Assembly: GCF_900109885.1 (NCBI RefSeq)
Contig: NZ_FOBS01000005.1
Coordinates: forward strand, 124,001-188,000
Reading direction: 5' to 3'
Length of the DNA stretch: 64,000 nt
DNA from: Syntrophus gentianae
Lineage (GTDB): Bacteria; Desulfobacterota; Syntrophia; Syntrophales; Syntrophaceae
The notes under the pieces are model-generated. The model did not search any database and was not told where the DNA came from. It saw only the letters and a program-made list of their open reading frames with translations. How positions within the stretch are numbered: position 1 is the stretch's first letter; each line of letters opens with the position of its first letter. Below, in pieces: positions 19,121-34,386 of the stretch. Both the position numbers and the translations under genes were made by a program.

Positions 19121-19903
19121 CTATTTGAACATTTCCGGAAAGCGGTTTCCGGCATCCTGAAGCTGCTTCTCAAGGGTTTTGGCGTCACGAATATCAATAA
19201 GATTCTTCAGTTCCTTCACCGTTTGTTCATACGACTCCAGAATGACAGGCAGATAGGGATTCCGGGTGAGGATTTCCGAATACATGCGGGCGTTGTGACT
19301 GAACACTTCCTTGATGATCCGGATTTTCTCCTCAAAAATCGGCGTCATATAGGGTTTAAGTGCCTCGATATCCGTCCCCAGCGCAGTCATGGCAAGTCCG
19401 AAGGTCATGGTGTTGAAGTGGTTCAACCCCTGGATGATGCCCATGAATCGATCATGCTCCTCCGGAGAAGTCTCCACGAGTCGCGCCCCATTCTTTTTTA
19501 AAATCCTCAGCAGCCAGGCAAGCCATTTGCCGCTGCCCGGCCGGACCGGGCAGAGAACGAAGGAATAGCCATCCATTGAAGGCACTTCCGGACCGAAGAG
19601 AGGGTGCGTTCCAATCACGTCGCACTCGGCACAACGCAGCATGGCATCTACCGGCTCCACCTTGAGGGAGGTGATGTCCATCAGCAGGGCATCTTTCCCC
19701 ATGACAGGTCCGATTCGTTCGATCACCTCCGTCGTAACGCTGACGGGCACACTCACGAGAACGACGGAACATCGCTTCCCCATCTCTTCCAGACTCATTC
19801 CTTCGTCTTTATCTGCAATATGAACCGAATATCCCTGGTTCTCGAAAAATCTTCCGAACCACCGGCCCATATCCCCTTTGCCGCCGATAATGCCAACTTC
19901 CAT
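19121..19903 (-). CDS. tyrA: Prephenate dehydrogenase
   Basis: 260 residues, short TyrA without a fused chorismate mutase or ACT domain. It oxidatively decarboxylates prephenate to 4-hydroxyphenylpyruvate, the Tyr precursor. The N-terminal nucleotide-binding motif is VGIIGGKGDMGRWFG; IGTHPLFGPEVPSMDG carries the catalytic His in the usual THPLFGP context. It is the last gene of the aro operon, 35 bp after aroC, and ties the pathway directly to Tyr output, which fits the Tyr-rich leader peptide at the operon start. Confidence 0.93.
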   Translation of the reverse strand: MEVGIIGGKGDMGRWFGRFFENQGYSVHIADKDEGMSLEEMGKRCSVVLVSVPVSVTTEVIERIGPVMGKDALLMDITSLKVEPVDAMLRCAECDVIGTHPLFGPEVPSMDGYSFVLCPVRPGSGKWLAWLLRILKKNGARLVETSPEEHDRFMGIIQGLNHFNTMTFGLAMTALGTDIEALKPYMTPIFEEKIRIIKEVFSHNARMYSEILTRNPYLPVILESYEQTVKELKNLIDIRDAKTLEKQLQDAGNRFPEMFK

Positions 19904-19938
19904 AGTATCTGTCGCCTTCCTTCTTTACCTCTTTCCGG

Positions 19939-21003
19939 TCATAAAGTGCCGGCCTTCTGCCGCAGCAGATGATCGGCCAGGACAATCTGCACCATTGCCT
20001 CACAGACGGGGACGATTCGCGGGATAACACAGATATCGTGTCTGCCGCCGATGGAGAGCGTCGTTGAATGCCCCTCCGTATCGACTGTCTCCTGAGTCCG
20101 GGAAATGGAGGGAATCGGCTTACAGGCAACCCTTAGAACGATTTCTTCTCCGTTGGTGATCCCGGCCAGAATCCCGCCGGCGGAGTTGGACAGGAATCCG
20201 CCGGGACTCAAAGGGTCATTGCTTTCCGATCCCAACAGGTCCGCCACGGCGAAACCCGCCCCGATCTCCACGCCTTTGACGGTGCCTATGCTCATGAGCG
20301 CCCCGGCCAGATCGGCATCCATCTTGTCGAAGACCGGCTCTCCCAGCCCGGTGGGACAGCCGCGTACAACGATTTCCACGATCCCTCCCAGGGTATCTCC
20401 CTGCTGTCGGACTTCTGCCAGCCGCTCCGTCATCCTGCGCACGGCGTCGGGATCGGGACAGAACAAATCGTTCTCCAGGGACTCCTTATGGATCCCCTCC
20501 CCGCTCCGGGAAATGTGGATCCCCCCCAGGGCTACCGTATAGGCCAGAACCTCAATCCCCGCAGTGCCTGTCACCTGGGCGGCCACGGCCCCTGCCGCCA
20601 CACGGGCCGCCGTTTCCCGTCCCGATGCCCGCCCTCCCCCTCGATGGTCTCGAAGGCCGTATTTCCTGTAATAGGTAAAATCTCCGTGTCCCGGACGAAA
20701 AACCGTTCGCAGATGCTCATAGGCACTACTGTCCGCATCACGATTGCGGATGAGCAGCGCAATCGGCGTCCCCATTGTTTTTCCCTCAAAGACACCGGAG
20801 AGAATTTCCACGTGGTCCGCCTCCTGCCGGGGAGAGGCAAAGCGCTGCTCTCCCGGCTTTCTTTTGTCCAGGGCGGTTTGGATCTGCCCCTCGGAGAGCA
20901 GAAGCCCCGGCGGACAGCCATCAATAACGGCGCCGAGCGCGCTGCCGTGAGATTCGCCCCAGGTGGTCACCCGAAAGACGGTTCCTATGGTACTCCCTGA
21001 CAT
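19939..21003 (-). CDS. aroC: Chorismate synthase
   Basis: 354 residues from the ATG at 21003, which has GGAGGG 5 nt upstream; the frame stays open for 37 more codons but that extension lacks a ribosome site. It converts EPSP to chorismate with reduced FMN. Signatures present: TTWGESHGSALG at the N-terminus, RPGHGDFTYYRKYG and GGGRASGRETAARVAAGAVA in the middle, and SISRTQETVD with the C-terminal GRHD. It is the last shared step before the Trp and Tyr/Phe branches. Confidence 0.97.
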   Translation of the reverse strand: MSGSTIGTVFRVTTWGESHGSALGAVIDGCPPGLLLSEGQIQTALDKRKPGEQRFASPRQEADHVEILSGVFEGKTMGTPIALLIRNRDADSSAYEHLRTVFRPGHGDFTYYRKYGLRDHRGGGRASGRETAARVAAGAVAAQVTGTAGIEVLAYTVALGGIHISRSGEGIHKESLENDLFCPDPDAVRRMTERLAEVRQQGDTLGGIVEIVVRGCPTGLGEPVFDKMDADLAGALMSIGTVKGVEIGAGFAVADLLGSESNDPLSPGGFLSNSAGGILAGITNGEEIVLRVACKPIPSISRTQETVDTEGHSTTLSIGGRHDICVIPRIVPVCEAMVQIVLADHLLRQKAGTL

Positions 21004-21061
21004 CCCTACCCTCCCTTCTCCACAGAATCTGACCCGGTATACCGACCGATATCGCCTCTTC

Positions 21062-21667
21062 TTACCCCCCTCGAGACCCCGATCCATCCGAAGCGGCAGC
21101 TTCTTTTGAACCATTCAGAGAGAAACGGCAAAGGATCTCCTCGACAATCTCCTCCAGAGTTGCCGAAGAAGTGTCGATAACCAGATCGGCCAGGCGTCGA
21201 TAGATCGGCATGCGCTGCGTCAAAATCTCCGTTGTTTCCCTGATTGCGTCCTGTTCTGAAAGTTCCGCGGTATCCTTTGCCGAAAAAGACGGCCTCTGCC
21301 CGTGACTTGCCGGGTCATTCCTCATCCGTCGGACAAGGATCCCTTCCTCGGCGGTCAGCAAGACGATCCAGCCCATCGCTTTCAGCACCCCGGCATTTTC
21401 CGGATCCAGGACGGCTCCGCCCCCGGTGGCCACGACACAGCGGTGGATCGTCTCCAGGGAACGAAGGGCCGCCTTTTCCCTTTCCCGGAAAAAGGCCCAT
21501 CCCTCCTGATCCACCATGTCCCGAATGGACCGGCCCTCGCGGGCTTCGACGAGGACATCGGTATCATGAAAGGGGCGGTTCAGCCGTCGGGCCAGTTCCC
21601 GGCCGACAGAAGTCTTTCCCGTTCCGCGATATCCGATGAGGATGATGTTCCGGTCATTTGGAAGCAT
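21062..21667 (-). CDS. aroK: Shikimate kinase
   Basis: 201 residues from the Met at 21667, 11 bp after aroA. It phosphorylates shikimate at the 3-hydroxyl. The P-loop IGYRGTGKTSVG (residues 11-22), the shikimate-binding HDTD, and VVATGGGAV are all in place, as is an R-rich lid (RRMRNDPASHGQRPSF). The C-terminal tail of about 15 residues is Gly/Ser-rich. Upstream codons open in the same frame overlap aroA and are not expected to be used. Confidence 0.95.
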   Translation of the reverse strand: MLPNDRNIILIGYRGTGKTSVGRELARRLNRPFHDTDVLVEAREGRSIRDMVDQEGWAFFREREKAALRSLETIHRCVVATGGGAVLDPENAGVLKAMGWIVLLTAEEGILVRRMRNDPASHGQRPSFSAKDTAELSEQDAIRETTEILTQRMPIYRRLADLVIDTSSATLEEIVEEILCRFSLNGSKEAAASDGSGSRGG

Positions 21668-21678
21668 TCTTTTATGCC

Positions 21679-22950
21679 CTATCGTGTGCCTGGCTCCAGT
21701 TTCTTCAACTCTTCCCAGAATCCGGGAAAGGATTTCCTGACGCATCCCCGGTCCGCAATCCTTATCCCCGGAATCGCCAGACCGGCGATGGCAAAACTCA
21801 TGGCAATCCGATGGTCGTCATAGCTTTCGATATCCCCTCCATGGGGGTCGCCGCCATCGATGATCAAACCATCCGCTGTTTCCCGGGCGGCAATACCGAT
21901 TCGCCCCAGTTCAGCTGCAAGGGCTGCCAGACGGTTGCTTTCCTTGATGCGCAGATGGGACGCCCCCGTGATAACGGTGCGTCCCGAGCGGAATACCGCC
22001 AGGACCGCCAGCGACGGGACCATATCGGGGATATCCCCCATGGCGAGTTCCACGTCTCCGGGATTCAGTTTTCCCCCCGCTACTTCAACACCCCCATCTC
22101 TCCAGGTCACCGTACATCCCAGGTCCTCTATAATCCTTAAAAAACGTGCATCTCCCTGTACGCTCTCTCCCGTAAGATTCGGCACGCAGACTCGCGCCAG
22201 CCCCAGGGCTGCCGCCAGAAAGAAGTAGGAAGCGCTGGAATAATCCCCCTCGATCACAAAGGAGCGTGCCGTATAGGATTGACCGGCCGGGACAAAAAAA
22301 ATGTTGTCCTTCTGCCTTTCAACAGCAACCCCGAACTGCTCCATCACCTGGAGCGTCATGTTGATATAAGGTTCGGAAACGGTGCGACCGGCAAGTCGAA
22401 TCTTCACATCGCGAGCCGCGTATGGACTGCTGAGAAGCAGGGAGGAAACATACTGGCTGCTGTCCAGATCCGTGAAAACGGTGCGCCCTCCGGGAAGCCC
22501 GCGTGCTTTGATCATAAGGGGGGGACATCCTGAATTTTCGGGAGTTTCGATCGTTACCCCCATGCAGCGCAGAACCTGCAGCAGCGGTAAAACAGGCCGC
22601 TCGCGAAGGCGGGGAGTGCCATCCAGGAGAAAGATTCCTTCTCCCAGACAAACCAGAGTCGTCAGAAAACGCAGTGCCGTTCCGTTGTTTCCCAGGAAAA
22701 TCTTCTCCACGGGTGCTTGAATCCAGCCTCCCGTTCCCGCAATCCGGATTTCCTTTTCCTCGATGGAAATTTTTGCGCCGAGAAGTTCCAGGGCCTTCAT
22801 GAGATAATGGGTATCTTCCGCGAGCAGGGCATTCTGCAACCGTGATTCCCCTTTCGCCAGGGCGGCAGCGATTAAAGCCCGCTGTGTGATGCTCTTCGAA
22901 CCTGGGACCTCAAGGGTCACCCTTCGGATGGATCGGCCATCAGAACTCAT
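21679..22950 (-). CDS. aroA: 5-enolpyruvylshikimate-3-phosphate synthase
   Basis: 423 residues from the ATG at 22950 (AAAGGAG 5 nt upstream); 47 additional upstream codons overlap aroE and are rejected. It transfers the enolpyruvyl group of PEP to shikimate-3-phosphate. PGSKSITQRALIAAALAKG gives the conserved Lys and Ser, GNNGTALRFL is the PEP-binding loop equivalent to the glyphosate-target region, and SYDDHRIAMSFAIAG is the C-terminal signature. The aroE stop and aroA start share one base (TGATG), indicating translational coupling. Confidence 0.97.
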   Translation of the reverse strand: MSSDGRSIRRVTLEVPGSKSITQRALIAAALAKGESRLQNALLAEDTHYLMKALELLGAKISIEEKEIRIAGTGGWIQAPVEKIFLGNNGTALRFLTTLVCLGEGIFLLDGTPRLRERPVLPLLQVLRCMGVTIETPENSGCPPLMIKARGLPGGRTVFTDLDSSQYVSSLLLSSPYAARDVKIRLAGRTVSEPYINMTLQVMEQFGVAVERQKDNIFFVPAGQSYTARSFVIEGDYSSASYFFLAAALGLARVCVPNLTGESVQGDARFLRIIEDLGCTVTWRDGGVEVAGGKLNPGDVELAMGDIPDMVPSLAVLAVFRSGRTVITGASHLRIKESNRLAALAAELGRIGIAARETADGLIIDGGDPHGGDIESYDDHRIAMSFAIAGLAIPGIRIADRGCVRKSFPGFWEELKKLEPGTR

Positions 22951-23825
22951 CAGCGCTCCTTTTCCCTTCTTTCCAGTTCCTCTCGCACAACCTGCCGCAT
23001 TCGATCCACCGGAGCCTCCATTGCGGTCCACAGGCGAAACTGTGCCGCGCCCTGTTCCACAAACATCTCCACCCCGGATAACACCGCACATCCGGCCTGC
23101 TCAGCTTCCCGCAACAGCCGCGTCTGCAGGGGATTGTAAATCACATCGGCGACAAGGCGAAAATGGTGGAGTACTTGGGCGGGAACGGGAGAGGCGTCCG
23201 TATTCGGCATCATCCCGACAGGGGTTGTGTTGATCAGGACGTCGCCTTTCAGCTCCCCGATGGCTGTCAAGGGATAAAAGGGGCAGCCGAACTCCGCGGC
23301 AAGAACCCGGCCCTGTTCTTCTGTCCGGTTGACCACCACCGGATTCCCTCCTTCAGAGATCAGGCCATAGAGGGCGGCCCGTGCGGTCCCACCGGCGCCG
23401 AGGACAACGACCTGCTTTCCTTTAATCTCCGTCACCCTCCGCAGCGCCCGGAAGAGCCCTTCCCAGTCGGTGTTTGTTCCCATCAACCGCACCCCTTGAC
23501 GGATCAGCGTATTCACGGCTCCGATGGCACGGGCCTGATCATCGAGATCATCGAGCAAGGCCATCACCTCTCTTTTGAACGGTATCGTCACGCTGGCTCC
23601 CCGGTATCCTTCCTTTCTGAGCTTTTCCACTGCCTCTTTCAGATCGGACACGTCCCAGGCTTCATAAGAGCCGGCGAGGTTGAGAAATTTCAGGGCGGCC
23701 GCATGCATGAGGGGAGAAAGGCTGTGCCCTACGGGATGGCCGAGGAGGGCCAGGCGAAACGGTTCACGGAAGTTCGTCGGCGACGGGATTGGATTAAGGG
23801 AATCACTCTCCTTAGAAAAGGTCAT
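22950..23825 (-). CDS. aroE: Shikimate dehydrogenase
   Basis: 291 residues; NADPH-dependent reduction of 3-dehydroshikimate. The shikimate-binding GHPVGHSLSPLMHAA, the catalytic Lys in VTIPFKREV, the catalytic Asp in GTNTDWEGL, and the nucleotide-binding VLGAGGTARAALYGL with NRTEEQ are all recognisable. It overlaps the upstream fusion gene by 4 bp (ATGA) and aroA by 1 bp. The 20-residue N-terminal extension before FRLALLGHP is unusual in length but starts at the coupled ATG. Confidence 0.96.
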   Translation of the reverse strand: MTFSKESDSLNPIPSPTNFREPFRLALLGHPVGHSLSPLMHAAALKFLNLAGSYEAWDVSDLKEAVEKLRKEGYRGASVTIPFKREVMALLDDLDDQARAIGAVNTLIRQGVRLMGTNTDWEGLFRALRRVTEIKGKQVVVLGAGGTARAALYGLISEGGNPVVVNRTEEQGRVLAAEFGCPFYPLTAIGELKGDVLINTTPVGMMPNTDASPVPAQVLHHFRLVADVIYNPLQTRLLREAEQAGCAVLSGVEMFVEQGAAQFRLWTAMEAPVDRMRQVVREELERREKER

Positions 23826-24922
23826 TTTCCCGTTTTCCCTCTTTCGGCAGAAAGGCCTTCTGCTGACCCCTCGGATTTCTTTCCCTTCTCCGATCCGCTT
23901 CCACCCAGGATTTCCAGAATTCTGAAAAGCTCCGCAGCGGTCAGTTGACCGGGCGCCGTAGCCGTCTCCTTTTCCAGGGAAGCAAAGGTAAAATGGGCTC
24001 CGAGTAGAGGGGCCAGAATCCGGCTTATTTTTCCCAATTCCCCCATGGAGAAGGCGACAATCTCCTGCCCTTTCCCCAAGGACCAGGGGATGAGCCGCAA
24101 CACCCGCAGGTTATCCGCCATGGTGCGGGCAAAGGTCACGATCTTGATGACCCGGGCGCCGGCTTCCCGGCAGGCCCTCCAGAGATCCTCAAGGGCGGCG
24201 TCAGAGGGGGTCGAAGAAAAGTCGTGGCAGGACACAATGAGCTGCGTCCGCCCAAGATGTTCACCGATGAGACTTTTCAATGTCTCCCGCAGGGCAACCG
24301 GCGAGCTGAGTTCAATATCCACATAATCGACCCCCAGGAGGATGGCTTCCTGCAGAACGGCGATCCGTTCCCCTTCCCTCTCCGAATTTTCGGCGACCGG
24401 CGAAAGCCCGCTTTCTTCCCCCTTTCGATGGGTTACCACAATCTTAACGGGAAAGGGATTCCTGCGGATTTCCCCAACCAGATCCTTCAGATTCCCGCCG
24501 CTGATCAAATCCATTCTCAATTCCAACAGATCCGCCAAGGGAGAAGCCGCTGAAATCTGCTTAAGCGCCTCGTCACTCCCCGGCCCCACCACCGGAATGC
24601 AGACTTTAACCCTACCCAGTCCCTCCCAGTCTTGACCGGGCAGAAGGGCCGTCATCAGGGTATTCTGCAGATAGCGGGAGGCGGCGACCACCTGGCCGAA
24701 TATGGCGGAGAGGATTGAAACCGGCATGGGCCCGTTATTGAACTGTGCCAGACGGCCATAAACCTGCTCCTCCTGCACCGGGTCATAAATTTCCATCCCC
24801 AGGTCTGCTTTTTTCCTGCCGATTTCCAGGGCAAGGGCCGCCCTTTCATTGAGCAGATCAACGATCCGGGTATCGGTGTTCTGAATGGATTCTCTCAGTT
24901 CTTCCAGCGATTGTCCGCTCAC
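23822..24922 (-). CDS. aroD: Chorismate mutase / type I 3-dehydroquinate dehydratase fusion
   Basis: 366 residues with two domains. Residues 1-90 are an AroQ-type chorismate mutase: LEELRESIQNTDTRIVDLLNER followed by EIGRKKAD and YDPVQEE, with Arg10, Arg27 and Lys37/38 at expected places. Residues 104-345 are class I dehydroquinate dehydratase: Glu134 in LELRMD, His233 in SCHDFSS and the Schiff-base Lys260 in RVIKIVTFA. One protein therefore catalyses step 3 of the shikimate pathway and the first step of the Tyr/Phe branch. AroQ is more often fused to DAHP synthase, prephenate dehydratase or prephenate dehydrogenase. The C-terminus (about 25 residues) is polar and disordered-looking. Overlaps aroB and aroE by 4 bp each. 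Confidence 0.93.
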   Translation of the reverse strand: MSGQSLEELRESIQNTDTRIVDLLNERAALALEIGRKKADLGMEIYDPVQEEQVYGRLAQFNNGPMPVSILSAIFGQVVAASRYLQNTLMTALLPGQDWEGLGRVKVCIPVVGPGSDEALKQISAASPLADLLELRMDLISGGNLKDLVGEIRRNPFPVKIVVTHRKGEESGLSPVAENSEREGERIAVLQEAILLGVDYVDIELSSPVALRETLKSLIGEHLGRTQLIVSCHDFSSTPSDAALEDLWRACREAGARVIKIVTFARTMADNLRVLRLIPWSLGKGQEIVAFSMGELGKISRILAPLLGAHFTFASLEKETATAPGQLTAAELFRILEILGGSGSEKGKKSEGSAEGLSAERGKTGK

Positions 24923-26013
24923 GATGTCATTTCCCCCAGTATCTTCTCCAGAAGGGACGTCTCGACTTCCTTACTGATAAAGGGTATGCCGATTTTTTTC
25001 AACAGGATAAAGGGCAGTTCACTCCCTTCCTTCTTCTTGTCCATCGCGAGCCTTTCCAGAGCATCCGGCAGGGAAAGACCCTCCGGAATCCGGACAGGCA
25101 GGCCAAGTTCCCCGATCAGGGCCTCGATCCGGTCTCTTTCCTCCGGAGAGAGGAAGCCCGCGTAGACGGAAATCCGCGACGCGGCGATCATCCCCAGGGC
25201 AACCGCCTTTCCGTGAGCCAGGGTAAAATTCGAAGCGGCTTCCAGGGCGTGGCCGAGCGTATGACCAAAATTCAAGATGCGCCGGAACCCCGATTCCTGT
25301 TCATCGATCTCCACGACCCCTTTTTTGATCCGGCAGGATCGTTCAATGACCGTCTCCAGGATCTCCCGATTTCTGGCGCGGAGGGCCGGGACTTCCCTTT
25401 CAAGCTGCTCAAAAAATCCCGGTTCGTCAATCAGTCCGTATTTGACAATCTCCGCCAGGCCGTTGAGATATTCCTCATCGGAAAGGGTTTCCAGAAATTT
25501 GAGATCGGTGAAAATCCGTTTCGGCTGATAGAAGGTCCCCAGGAGGTTTTTCCCCTGGGGAAGGTTGACGGCCGTTTTCCCGCCGATGCTGCTGTCCACC
25601 TGAGCCATCAGCGTTGTGGGAATCTGGATGAACGGGACGGAACGCATGTAAATGGACGCCACAAAACCCGTCATATCCCCCACCACGCCGCCTCCCAGGG
25701 CAATCAGCAGGGAATGGCGATCCAGGCCCAGTTTCAGCAGCCGCGAGGTCAGTTCCAGGGTGGTCTCCATGGTCTTTGATCCCTCCCCTGCGAAAAATTC
25801 CAGAAGATCGACGGTCAGTCCCAGTTCCCGGAGGATTTCGAGGAAAGCCTTCCCGTAAAGCCGGGAAACATTGGAATCGGTCACGATGACATAGCGGTTT
25901 GCTGGAAAATCCTTCGCGATGAGGAGACCGATTCGATCCTGGAAATCATAGCCGATGCAGATTTCATGGGATTCCGAGAGACGCTTGTCGAGGTGGATTT
26001 TGATCCGGTTCAT
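24919..26013 (-). CDS. aroB: 3-dehydroquinate synthase
   Basis: 364 residues; converts DAHP to 3-dehydroquinate using NAD and a divalent metal. Seen: [64 protein letters not shown] split over the NAD-binding and active-site loops, and metal ligands in [12 protein letters not shown]. It overlaps aroF by 4 bp (ATGA) and the next gene by 4 bp, so the first four aro genes are tightly coupled. Confidence 0.97.
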
Positions 26014-27038
26014 ACCAGCACCCTTTCCGTAGCTCTCAGGAGATATTCCATCCGTTTCAGTTCTTCCATCAATTCGTAAAACGTCTCCGGTTTCAGGGAC
26101 TGCGCCCCGTCGCAGAAAGCCTTCTCCGGCTGGGGATGCATCTCCACGATGATTCCATCGGCGCCGACGGCCAGGGCCGCCCGGCTCAGGGGGATGACAT
26201 ATTTCCAGTGACCCGTCGCGTGACTGGGATCGATAACGACGGGCAGGTGGGTCAATTCTTTCAGGACGGGCACGGCACTGATATCCAGGGTATTGCGGGT
26301 GGCCGTTTCGAACGTTCTTATCCCCCGCTCGCAGAGGATCACCTGCTCATTTCCCGCTGACAGGATGTACTCCGCGGACATGAGCAGTTCTTCGATGGTG
26401 GTCATCATCCCCCGTTTCAGAAGAACGGGTTTGCGCGACTGGCCGATTTTCTTCAGGAGGGCGAAGTTCTGGACATTCCGGGCTCCCACCTGGAGGATGT
26501 CGGCATAGGCCTCGACTAGATCCACGTCCGCAGGATTCACCACCTCCGTAACCACGGGCATCCCCGTTTTTTCCCTGGCTTTTGCCAGCAGTTTCAGACC
26601 ATCCTCTTCCATCCCCTGAAAACTGTATGGTGAAGTTCTCGGTTTGAATGCCCCTCCGCGCAGGATCTGGGCTCCGCCCTTCTTGGCGATGTAGGCGCTT
26701 TCCAGCAGCTGTTCCTCGCTTTCTATGGAACAGGGACCGGCCATAACGGTGAATGTTCCGTCCCCAACTCTCACATCGCCGATACGAACGATGGTATCCT
26801 CGGCCTTGGCCTCCCGGCTGGTCAGCTTGTAGGGTTTGCGGATGGGAACAACCTTCTCCACGCCGGACAATGCCGCCAGATATTTGAGTTCCTCACCGCC
26901 CCGCTCTCCTCCGATAGCCTTGACAACGGTCTGTTCCGTACCCTTGGAGTGGTAGGCCTTGTAGCCGATGGACTCCACCCAGTGAACGACATGGTCTATC
27001 TGAACTTCCGTTGCGTTTCTTTTCATGACGATAATCAT
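26010..27038 (-). CDS. aroF: DAHP synthase, type I-beta with N-terminal regulatory domain
   Basis: 342 residues from the ATG at 27038, which has AAAGGAG and AAGG just upstream; a longer frame to 27128 would translate through the attenuator hairpin and is rejected. It condenses PEP and erythrose-4-phosphate, the committed step. Residues 1-70 form the ferredoxin-like domain ([18 protein letters not shown]), which in Thermotoga maritima DAHP synthase mediates Tyr/Phe feedback inhibition. The catalytic barrel shows [43 protein letters not shown] and [10 protein letters not shown]. It is the first structural gene after the Tyr-rich leader and terminator. Confidence 0.96.
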
Positions 27039-27089: not shown

Positions 27090-27128
27090 AACAAAAATGG
27101 CCATGGTGTCTGCTGCCACCATGGCCAT
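27090..27128 (-). terminator. Attenuator terminator of the aro operon
   Basis: On the minus strand ATGGCCATGGTG (27128-27117) and CACCATGGCCAT (27108-27097) make a perfect 12-bp stem with an 8-nt loop, followed immediately by TTTTTGTT. It stands 52 nt before the aroF start and downstream of the Tyr-rich leader ORF, the classic place for an amino-acid attenuator. Its 5' arm can alternatively pair with the 3' arm of the hairpin at 27138-27174. Confidence 0.9.
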
Positions 27129-27137
27129 AAAAGAAGA

Positions 27138-27174
27138 AAGCCATGGGCGGCGCTTTCTGATCTGCCCATGGCTT
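27138..27174 (-). promoter_or_regulatory. Anti-antiterminator hairpin (arms 1:2) of the aro leader
   Basis: AAGCCATGGGC (27174-27164) pairs with GCCCATGGCTT (27148-27138), 11 perfect bp around a 15-nt loop. The 3' arm contains CCATGGC, complementary to GCCATGG in the 5' arm of the terminator. The 5' arm plus loop (ATGGGCAGATC, 27169-27159) is complementary over 11 bp (one G-U) to GATCTGTCCAT at 27221-27211 inside the leader ORF. The pairings are mutually exclusive. Confidence 0.75.
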
Positions 27175-27193
27175 GGTGTTTTAATCCGTTAGT

Positions 27194-27268
27194 TCAACCC
27201 ACCCGAAGCAATGGACAGATCTTCAGAAAATAATAATACCAATAATAGCTAAAATATTTGGCGTTCAT
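27194..27268 (-). CDS. Tyr/Phe/Trp-rich leader peptide of the aro operon
   Basis: A 24-codon ORF, ATG at 27268 and TGA at 27196-27194. Residues 5-14 read YFSYYWYYYF: six Tyr (all TAT), two Phe and one Trp. The remainder is LKICPLLRVG. Such a run is characteristic of attenuator leader peptides, in which a ribosome stalls when the charged tRNA is scarce. A promoter lies about 60 nt upstream and the hairpins described at 27138-27174 and 27090-27128 follow. The ribosome-binding site is weak (a GGACGGA stretch upstream). The ORF is too short for routine gene callers. Translation is inferred, not shown; the match of composition, position and downstream structure makes chance unlikely. Confidence 0.88.
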   Translation of the reverse strand: MNAKYFSYYWYYYFLKICPLLRVG

Positions 27269-27334
27269 ATTTCTGTTTTTTCCGTCCATTTCTTCTTTCT
27301 ATAAAAATCAACCTTTTAATTCAAGTTGACGAGG

Positions 27335-27363
27335 ATAAAAACACAAAGCCGGCATTCTGTCAA
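27335..27363 (-). promoter_or_regulatory. Promoter of the aro operon leader
   Basis: TTGACA (27358-27363, minus strand) is followed after 17 bp by TTTTAT (27335-27340). The -35 is perfect and the -10 matches 4 of 6. It sits directly after the trpA stop, so the aro half can be transcribed independently of the trp half as well as by read-through. Confidence 0.7.
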
Positions 27364-27376
27364 GAAGAATGTGTTT

Positions 27377-28180
27377 TCACTCTTCCATCGCCTCCTTGAT
27401 CTTCCTGGCAAGGGCCGATACCTGCGGCACCAGATCAGGGCTCTCCGCAAATTCGGCAATCAACCGCACAAAGGCGCTGCCGATGACGATCCCATCCGCC
27501 AGAAAGGAAAAGGCCCTTGCCTGCTCCGGCGTCGAGATGCCGAAGCCGACAACGAGGGGAAGATCCGTAAAGGACTGAATCCTTGCCAGATCCTTCTTCA
27601 CGCTTTCCGTATCGGGCTTTGCCGTTCCCGTCACCCCGGTAATAGAGATGTAATAGAGAAATCCCTGACCCTGGCGGGCAATCTGGCGCATCCGCTCCTC
27701 CGAAGTCGTCGGTGCGATCAGAGAAATGAAATCGAGCCCTTTTGCGTCGGTTTCCCTGCGGAGTTCCCCGGCTTCTTCAGGGGGTAGATCGACCACGAGC
27801 AGTCCGTCGACGCCGGCAGCCTTCGCCCGCTGGGCAAAACGCTCGATTCCGTATGCATAGATGGGATTGTAATAGCCGAAGAGGACCACCGGCGGCAGAT
27901 CGATTGTCTTCCGGAGGCCTTCGATCATATCGAGAATTTTCGCCAGCGTCGCCCCCTTTTTCAGGGCCCGCTGGGCTGCCTCCTGAATGACGGGGCCATC
28001 GGCGGTGGGGTCGGAAAAGGGCACCCCGATCTCCAGGATGTCCACCCCTGCATCCTTCAGTCCGACGAGAATCTGCCGGGTCTTTTCGAGGTCGGGGTCG
28101 CCGGCCGTCACATAGGCCACCAGGGCCTTTTCTCCCCTGCTTTTCAACAACTGGAAGGTTTGTGCAATCCTGCTCGTCAC
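27377..28180 (-). CDS. trpA: Tryptophan synthase alpha chain
   Basis: 267 residues from GTG at 28180, with GGAGG inside the end of trpB 9 nt upstream. It cleaves indole-3-glycerol phosphate and channels indole to the beta chain. Catalytic Glu and Asp lie in [18 protein letters not shown] and YVTAGDPD respectively; [25 protein letters not shown] and [10 protein letters not shown] are typical. The start is one base after the trpB stop. Last gene of the trp half. Confidence 0.95.
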
Positions 28181-34314: not shown

Positions 34315-34386
34315 TCACCGGCGGTCAACCCCCTGTTTTGAAGGCTGCCACCACCAGTTATTAGTCGATAATTGTATTTTCAACAT
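34315..34386 (-). CDS. trpL: trp operon leader peptide with three consecutive Trp codons
   Basis: A 23-codon ORF, ATG at 34386 and TGA at 34317-34315. Residues 9-15 read NNWWWQP; the Trp codons are TGG-TGG-TGG at 34356-34348. The start of the peptide is MLKIQLST and its end QGVDRR. A promoter lies about 50 nt upstream, and two hairpins and trpE follow, matching the established architecture of ribosome-mediated trp attenuation. Too short for ordinary gene calling. The ribosome site is only a GAGG about 12 nt upstream. Confidence 0.9.
   Translation of the reverse strand: MLKIQLSTNNWWWQPSKQGVDRR

Follow-up and report, generated by a model that had tools for sequence, protein, structure and literature searches.

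Attenuation is usually taught as a device that couples one amino acid to one biosynthetic operon. In the his attenuator of E. coli and Salmonella, the arms pair either as A:B, C:D and E:F or as B:C and D:E, so that an untranslated leader terminates. A main comparative study of proteobacterial attenuators is that of Vitreschak et al. from 2004. For DAHP synthase operons, a precedent is aroR-aroF of C. glutamicum, where attenuation has been described (Neshat et al. 2014, via PMC11802643; also PMC4046766). In Acholeplasma, the uORFC-13-1 motif, with 24 representatives, lies before aroF and has been proposed to act by attenuation (PMC8632094). The D. vulgaris aroA'-aroB'-pheA-aroF-tyrA-trp supraoperon carries a putative attenuator listed from a computational database (PMC1173090, Table 7), and a Shewanella screen annotates aroF as an "Attenuator sensing tyr-tRNA" (PMC2659441).

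Here we examined a stretch of Syntrophus DNA of 64,000 nucleotides (the window) in which a leader located between trpA (stop codon at 27377) and aroF (start codon at 27038) very probably serves, judging from its sequence, as a ribosome-mediated (leader-peptide) transcription attenuator of aroF-aroB-aroQD-aroE-aroA-aroK-aroC-tyrA. The promoter, the leader ORF and the genes are as follows.

27335 to 27363, minus strand: sigma-70-like promoter, TTGACA (27363-27358), a 17-bp spacer and TTTTAT (27340-27335)
27194 to 27289, minus strand: probable leader ORF of 31 codons, MDGKNRNMNAKYFSYYWYYYFLKICPLLRVG, in which 27268 is an internal ATG, as judged from the start column of relatives
27227 to 27256, minus strand: YFSYYWYYYF, the run of aromatic codons at which the ribosome is proposed to stall, from the ORF translation and relatives
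26010 to 27038, minus strand: aroF, type I-beta DAHP synthase with an N-terminal ferredoxin-like regulatory domain, the putative first controlled gene
19121 to 26013, minus strand: rest of the operon, namely aroB, a chorismate mutase-3-dehydroquinase fusion, aroE, aroA, aroK, aroC and tyrA

The initial annotation had described a minus-strand ORF of 24 codons (27268-27194) with YFSYYWYYYF at residues 5-14, comprising six Tyr, two Phe and one Trp, and exact translation (MNAKYFSYYWYYYFLKICPLLRVG) agrees with it in each respect. The TTGACA-17-TTTTAT promoter that it had reported is likewise present, at 27363-27335, directly 3' of the trpA stop codon. Nine aromatic residues in ten is the highest ten-residue count in all six frames of the window; the maximum in 60 Markov-1 sequences of 64 kb was seven, and only 1 of 3,000 Markov-1 copies of the intergenic region reached nine. 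The reading frame thus described stands, but its start at 27268 is probably not the one used. Relatives commonly begin their leaders with ATGGACAG or ATGGGCAG, and the equivalent position in the window is the in-frame ATG at 27289, not 27268. Because an ATG occupies this column in 39 of 49 leaders and loci L002 and L003 lack the internal ATG, the leader more likely starts at 27289 and the peptide is probably the 31-codon MDGKNRNMNAKYFSYYWYYYFLKICPLLRVG. The Shine-Dalgarno sequence of the window leader is weak.

Pfam matches bear out the earlier claim that the downstream genes encode a chorismate mutase domain and prephenate dehydrogenase in addition to the seven shikimate steps: DAHP synthase, DHQ synthase, the chorismate mutase-dehydroquinase fusion, shikimate dehydrogenase, EPSP synthase, shikimate kinase, chorismate synthase and prephenate dehydrogenase were all recognized, the DAHP synthase with its ferredoxin-like regulatory domain. 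The nearest named relatives of this AroF are from Syntrophus sp. (88-92% identity). The fusion joins a type II chorismate mutase to a type I 3-dehydroquinase in one protein of 366 aa (24922-23822, minus strand). The aroF frame is open further upstream, from an ATG at 27128 inside arm 5 (27128-27038, minus strand); similarity among relatives begins at the ATG at 27038, so the longer start is probably unused.

Between the leader ORF and aroF lie two hairpins with U tracts, 3:4 at 27174-27138 and 5:6 at 27128-27097. Two hairpins, the second with a 12-bp stem and a T run and followed by aroF, had been noted before, and both are there; since the first has a U tract as well, they are better described as two tandem terminator-like hairpins. 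The 216-nt leader folds with a z score of -6.95 (0 of 200 shuffles were equally good), and its six arms can alternate between 1:2, 3:4 and 5:6, with 3:4 and 5:6 both terminator-like, and 2:3 and 4:5. The arms, predicted from folding and comparison, are listed here.

27281 to 27293, minus strand: arm 1, in the leader start region, expected to pair with arm 2 if the leader is untranslated (folding, covariation, arm swaps)
27205 to 27222, minus strand: arm 2, GATCTGTCCATTGCTT, inside the ORF right after the aromatic run; partners are arm 1 or arm 3
27157 to 27175, minus strand: arm 3, AAGCCATGGGCAGATC; partners are arm 2, for antitermination, or arm 4, in terminator I
27128 to 27151, minus strand: arm 4 (27151-27138) and a U-rich tract, the 3' half of terminator I; arm 5 is the antiterminated partner
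27115 to 27130, minus strand: arm 5, the 5' half of terminator II; arm 4 is the antiterminated partner
27093 to 27108, minus strand: arm 6 and a U tract, the 3' half of terminator II

The calculated helix energies in the window are -23.3 kcal/mol for 2:3, -22.2 for 3:4, -20.1 for 4:5, -23.3 for 5:6 and -14.2 for 1:2. When arm 2 is left free, the window RNA folds into 2:3 in place of 3:4. Helix 5:6 still beats 4:5 in equilibrium folding, which did not yield the 4:5 antiterminator, and antitermination at terminator II would therefore have to be kinetic, taking place during RNA synthesis, which is when classical attenuators are generally assumed to act.

We sought AroF in 60 genomes and read the sequence upstream of aroF at 50 loci of the same order. 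The initial annotation had proposed aligning these regions among relatives, and the comparison revealed hairpins and an aromatic-rich leader ORF at 49 of the 50 loci, the ORF usually of 22-45 codons and ending in a motif like VCPSLRR, along with strongly covarying terminator stems. It had also held that relatives keeping hairpins without the ORF would speak against its reading; this arrangement occurs at one locus of 50, L043, where the leader ORF before aroF is lost and one hairpin is kept. In L043 (255-175, minus strand) a natural deletion joins the promoter directly to a single terminator hairpin, and L024, from the same genus group, retains the ORF with a single hairpin. A clear second hairpin is absent from five loci (L024, L042, L044, L048 and L050). 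In most relatives an exact TTGACA with a fair -10 element lies about 50-70 nt upstream of the leader, and with a longer search window TTGACA-N17-TTT[TG]AT was located following trpA in each of the four Syntrophus genomes.

These comparisons bear on whether the region might be a plain terminator closing off the trp genes and the ORF a frame that arose by chance. That trpA is directly upstream in Syntrophus and that both hairpins have U tracts would suit such an arrangement, but Syntrophus and two further named loci alone have trpA ahead of the leader, which would therefore normally begin a transcription unit of its own, and the region is conserved before aroF even where trpA is absent. The ORF moreover retains its aromatic codons and a constant spacing from arm 2, and arms 2 and 3 are complementary in every genome compared. 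We consider a plain terminator scarcely credible; the rarity of trpA upstream of the leader led us to reject the idea that the hairpins merely close the trp operon.

Covariation, computed on an alignment of 49 sequences (A1), was strongest in the terminator stems, where 92.1% of cells are paired, 18 of 25 pairs have double changes and 86 double-change cells were counted against 24.7 in shuffles. The antiterminator stems are paired in 89.5% of cells and have 27 double-change cells, a number that none of 500 shuffles reached (15.8 in shuffles); two of the five measures computed for them, double-change pairs and further pair types, did not clearly exceed shuffles (50/500 and 24/500, respectively). 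Weaker covariation in 2:3 and 4:5 is to be expected from the need for each arm to fit two partners. Helix 1:2 is the weakest, with 80.6% paired and 13 double-change cells against 6.5 in shuffles. Swapping arms between species weakened all of helices 1:2, 2:3, 3:4, 4:5 and 5:6, and none of 5,000 permutations was as good; the value for 5:6 was computed without empty arms.

Strong conserved RNA structure could also belong to a metabolite-binding riboswitch, a T-box or a protein-binding leader with an incidental ORF, and the peptide might itself act, as the peTrpL leader peptide of Sinorhizobium does in trans (PMC7298713). We judge all of these very improbable. An Rfam search with the leader and eight related loci found nothing relevant, the T-box covariance model included, and no conserved aptamer-like core exists beyond the arms. 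The residues of the peptide change freely as long as they stay aromatic, and its C-terminal motif tracks the RNA arm and not the protein: in locus L042 the arm 2 motif GGTCTGCCCATTGC falls in a different reading frame, so it is the RNA rather than the peptide that is conserved there.

The position of the aromatic codons relative to the arms fits stalling by a ribosome. Nearly all of them fall 6-48 nt 5' of arm 2 and hardly any within it, and in 39 of the 49 leaders the stop codon lies 25 nt from where arm 2 begins. Given the usual ribosome footprint, a ribosome stalled in the run would leave arm 2 largely free, and one at the stop codon would cover its 3' half. In 17 of 49 genomes, a perfect Shine-Dalgarno-like AGGAGG occurs late in the leader ORF (A1, approximately columns 197-203), between arm 2 and the leader stop codon and with no start codon at the right distance; it might keep ribosomes near the stop codon, arm 2 staying covered.

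As to the amino acids sensed, the 49 leaders contain 370 aromatic codons, of which 182 are Tyr, 137 Phe and 51 Trp; Phe occurs in all 49 and Trp in 43, and 43 have all three. The description of the leader as Tyr-rich holds in the window, where six of the nine aromatic codons are Tyr, but does not hold as a claim for a tyrosine sensor, as the runs of relatives are mixed and the Syntrophus leaders are Tyr-heavy members of an order that mixes all three. From this mixture, the leader probably responds to a shortage of any aromatic amino acid and thus reads all three. A narrower alternative is that only the Tyr codons matter and that the Phe and Trp codons represent drift in an aromatic-looking run. 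Tyr is the commonest codon both in the window and in the order, the operon ends in tyrA, and the Phe-Tyr-Phe leader of C. glutamicum aroR responds to Phe and not to Tyr (PMC11802643), so that a single-amino-acid response from a mixed leader is possible. The Phe and Trp codons, however, are typically confined to a constant zone 5' of arm 2, Phe codons equal Tyr codons in number in several genomes, and some aroF leaders at the phylum level are Trp runs (L233, L234 and L242). We find control by Tyr only unlikely and set it aside on the codon tally.

Our preferred reading remains attenuation by a multivalent leader peptide. The locus combines a short ORF with a codon run for the end product of the operon, an intrinsic terminator between this ORF and the first structural gene, and an antiterminator pairing, mutually exclusive with the terminator, that a stalled ribosome would permit; as in his-type attenuators with six arms, 1:2, 3:4 and 5:6 alternate with 2:3 and 4:5. 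The ORF, the promoter and the arms, with their conservation, covariation and geometry, are documented at the sequence level, and on this basis we infer transcription from the promoter, stalling, the amino acids sensed and increased readthrough upon starvation. The transcript would begin at the promoter after trpA, and a ribosome would translate the 31-codon leader. Poor charging of Tyr-tRNA, and probably also of Phe- or Trp-tRNA, would stall the ribosome in the aromatic run, where it would cover arm 1; the free arm 2 would pair with arm 3, and arm 4 would then pair with arm 5. With 2:3 and 4:5 formed, neither terminator could form and RNA polymerase would read into aroF. When the aromatic tRNAs are charged, the ribosome would reach the stop codon and cover arm 2, hairpins 3:4 and 5:6 would form in tandem, and transcription would stop. 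If the leader were untranslated, 1:2 would form, and so would the terminators. Leader-peptide attenuation of the shikimate operon, as first proposed, is thus strongly supported by the conserved ORF, the hairpins, the alternative pairings and, in most relatives, the promoter, while the Tyr specificity attached to it is not.

The aroF leader shares the six-arm logic of the E. coli and Salmonella his attenuator, but it appears to sense aromatic amino acids rather than His, and its middle hairpin, 3:4, also has a U tract. As in the E. coli pheA, pheST and trpE leaders (Phe_leader and Trp_leader in Rfam), the ribosome would stall at codons for pathway products; those leaders each sense one amino acid, whereas the aroF leader targets the common pathway and has no Rfam match. 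The covariance models of the Rfam leader families (Trp_leader, Phe_leader and others) did not match the leader, and the Trp_leader model matched nowhere in the genome carrying this leader. With C. glutamicum aroR-aroF it shares an aromatic leader peptide and transcription attenuation of a DAHP synthase operon, although aroR has only Phe-Tyr-Phe, responds to Phe and belongs to a phylum unrelated to that of Syntrophus; Syntrophales leaders, compared with it by function only, usually have 7-9 aromatic codons of all three kinds and tandem terminators. The Acholeplasma motif similarly places an uORF and a terminator before DAHP synthase, but with at least one Phe codon only and in a different phylum. 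D. vulgaris, also of the former Deltaproteobacteria, has its putative attenuator in the same pathway, but as a hairpin prediction only, with no specificity given and the word "leader" absent from the text (PMC1173090). Literature searches for a Tyr or aromatic leader, which reached few subscription papers, gave no direct match. The claim that the arrangement is not a standard described example thus stands for this order and for Rfam, but not for DAHP synthase attenuation as such, which is documented in C. glutamicum, proposed in Acholeplasma and predicted in D. vulgaris. The mechanism is classical; novelty would lie in a leader with multivalent sensing, in the two terminators in tandem and in the family of re-coded switches described below. 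A single leader seems to read three aromatic amino acids and to gate the entire common pathway, which is a logical place for multivalent sensing.

A second leader of this type precedes trpE in the window.

34315 to 34386, minus strand: Trp leader ORF MLKIQLSTNNWWWQPSKQGVDRR (WWW) before trpE, followed by two U-tract hairpins (44.9 bits, E 7e-6)

This leader region (34386-34200, minus strand) offers the same pairing options as the aroF leader, so the trp and aro units each carry their own attenuator. The two gene clusters form two attenuated units in series.

To look beyond the order, we built a covariance model (R1) from arms 2-6, leaving the aromatic run out. Its E-values are rough; R1 matched in 149 of 155 genomes of the class and, at E <= 0.001, in 171 of 395 sampled genomes of the phylum, which we take to be Desulfobacterota. 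For an independent test of the matches, a leader was counted when an ORF with at least three Trp or at least six aromatic residues in 12 codons lay at the expected position. Such an ORF accompanied 69 of 77 inspected matches outside the class, compared with 3.4% for positions drawn at random from those loci; 69 of 77 is no estimate for all matches because those inspected were mainly the stronger ones. Among the weak matches, L240, L249, L251, L260 and L261 lack a persuasive aromatic leader; they are probably spurious, or concerned with other amino acids. The genes downstream of matches include type I-beta and I-alpha DAHP synthases, aminotransferases, chorismate mutase AroH and ADTH synthase (TIGR01949), the entry enzyme of an alternative route to dehydroquinate, so that R1 finds attenuators before the same gene (aroA') that heads the D. 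vulgaris supraoperon. Trp-run leaders precede trpE, trpD and trpB2 and, as WWW or WWWW, an outer-membrane Phenol_MetA_deg protein, while Phe or Tyr runs precede periplasmic binding proteins and Phe runs a PaaK-like ligase. The trp genes outside the window, the aminotransferases and the PaaK-like ligase were named by reading their sequences and not with Pfam/NCBIfam.

We lean toward the view that these loci belong to a modular six-arm attenuator family found throughout Desulfobacterota, with a common RNA switch and interchangeable stall codons, giving a general control of aromatic amino acids that includes uptake and breakdown genes. DAHP and ADTH synthases and aminotransferases would be preceded by mixtures of Tyr, Phe and Trp codons, trpE, trpD, trpB2 and a SphA-like outer-membrane protein by Trp runs, and LivK-like transporters and a PaaK-like CoA ligase by Phe or Tyr runs. 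A re-coded switch for transporters and other genes appears across a large group of poorly studied anaerobes and offers a map of regulons where genetic tools are scarce; the codons of a leader indicate which amino acid goes with an uncharacterized transporter or porin, an aid to assigning its function.

At L204-L211, from several genomes of the class, WWW or WWWW leaders stand before the SphA-like outer-membrane protein (Phenol_MetA_deg tested for L204), except at L208, where the gene is chorismate mutase AroH; the Trp leaders hint at a role of this protein in tryptophan or indole-related uptake. Phe-rich leaders precede LivK-like periplasmic binding proteins at L212-L223 within the class (Peripla_BP_6 confirmed for L212; L221 is a CoA ligase instead), and Tyr-rich leaders do so outside it, at L237, L241, L253, L259, L267 and L274, which suggests ligands for these proteins. 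At L252 and L273, Phe-rich leaders (RFFRFRFFGF) precede a gene that reads like a phenylacetate-CoA ligase, an odd target for an attenuator induced by starvation.
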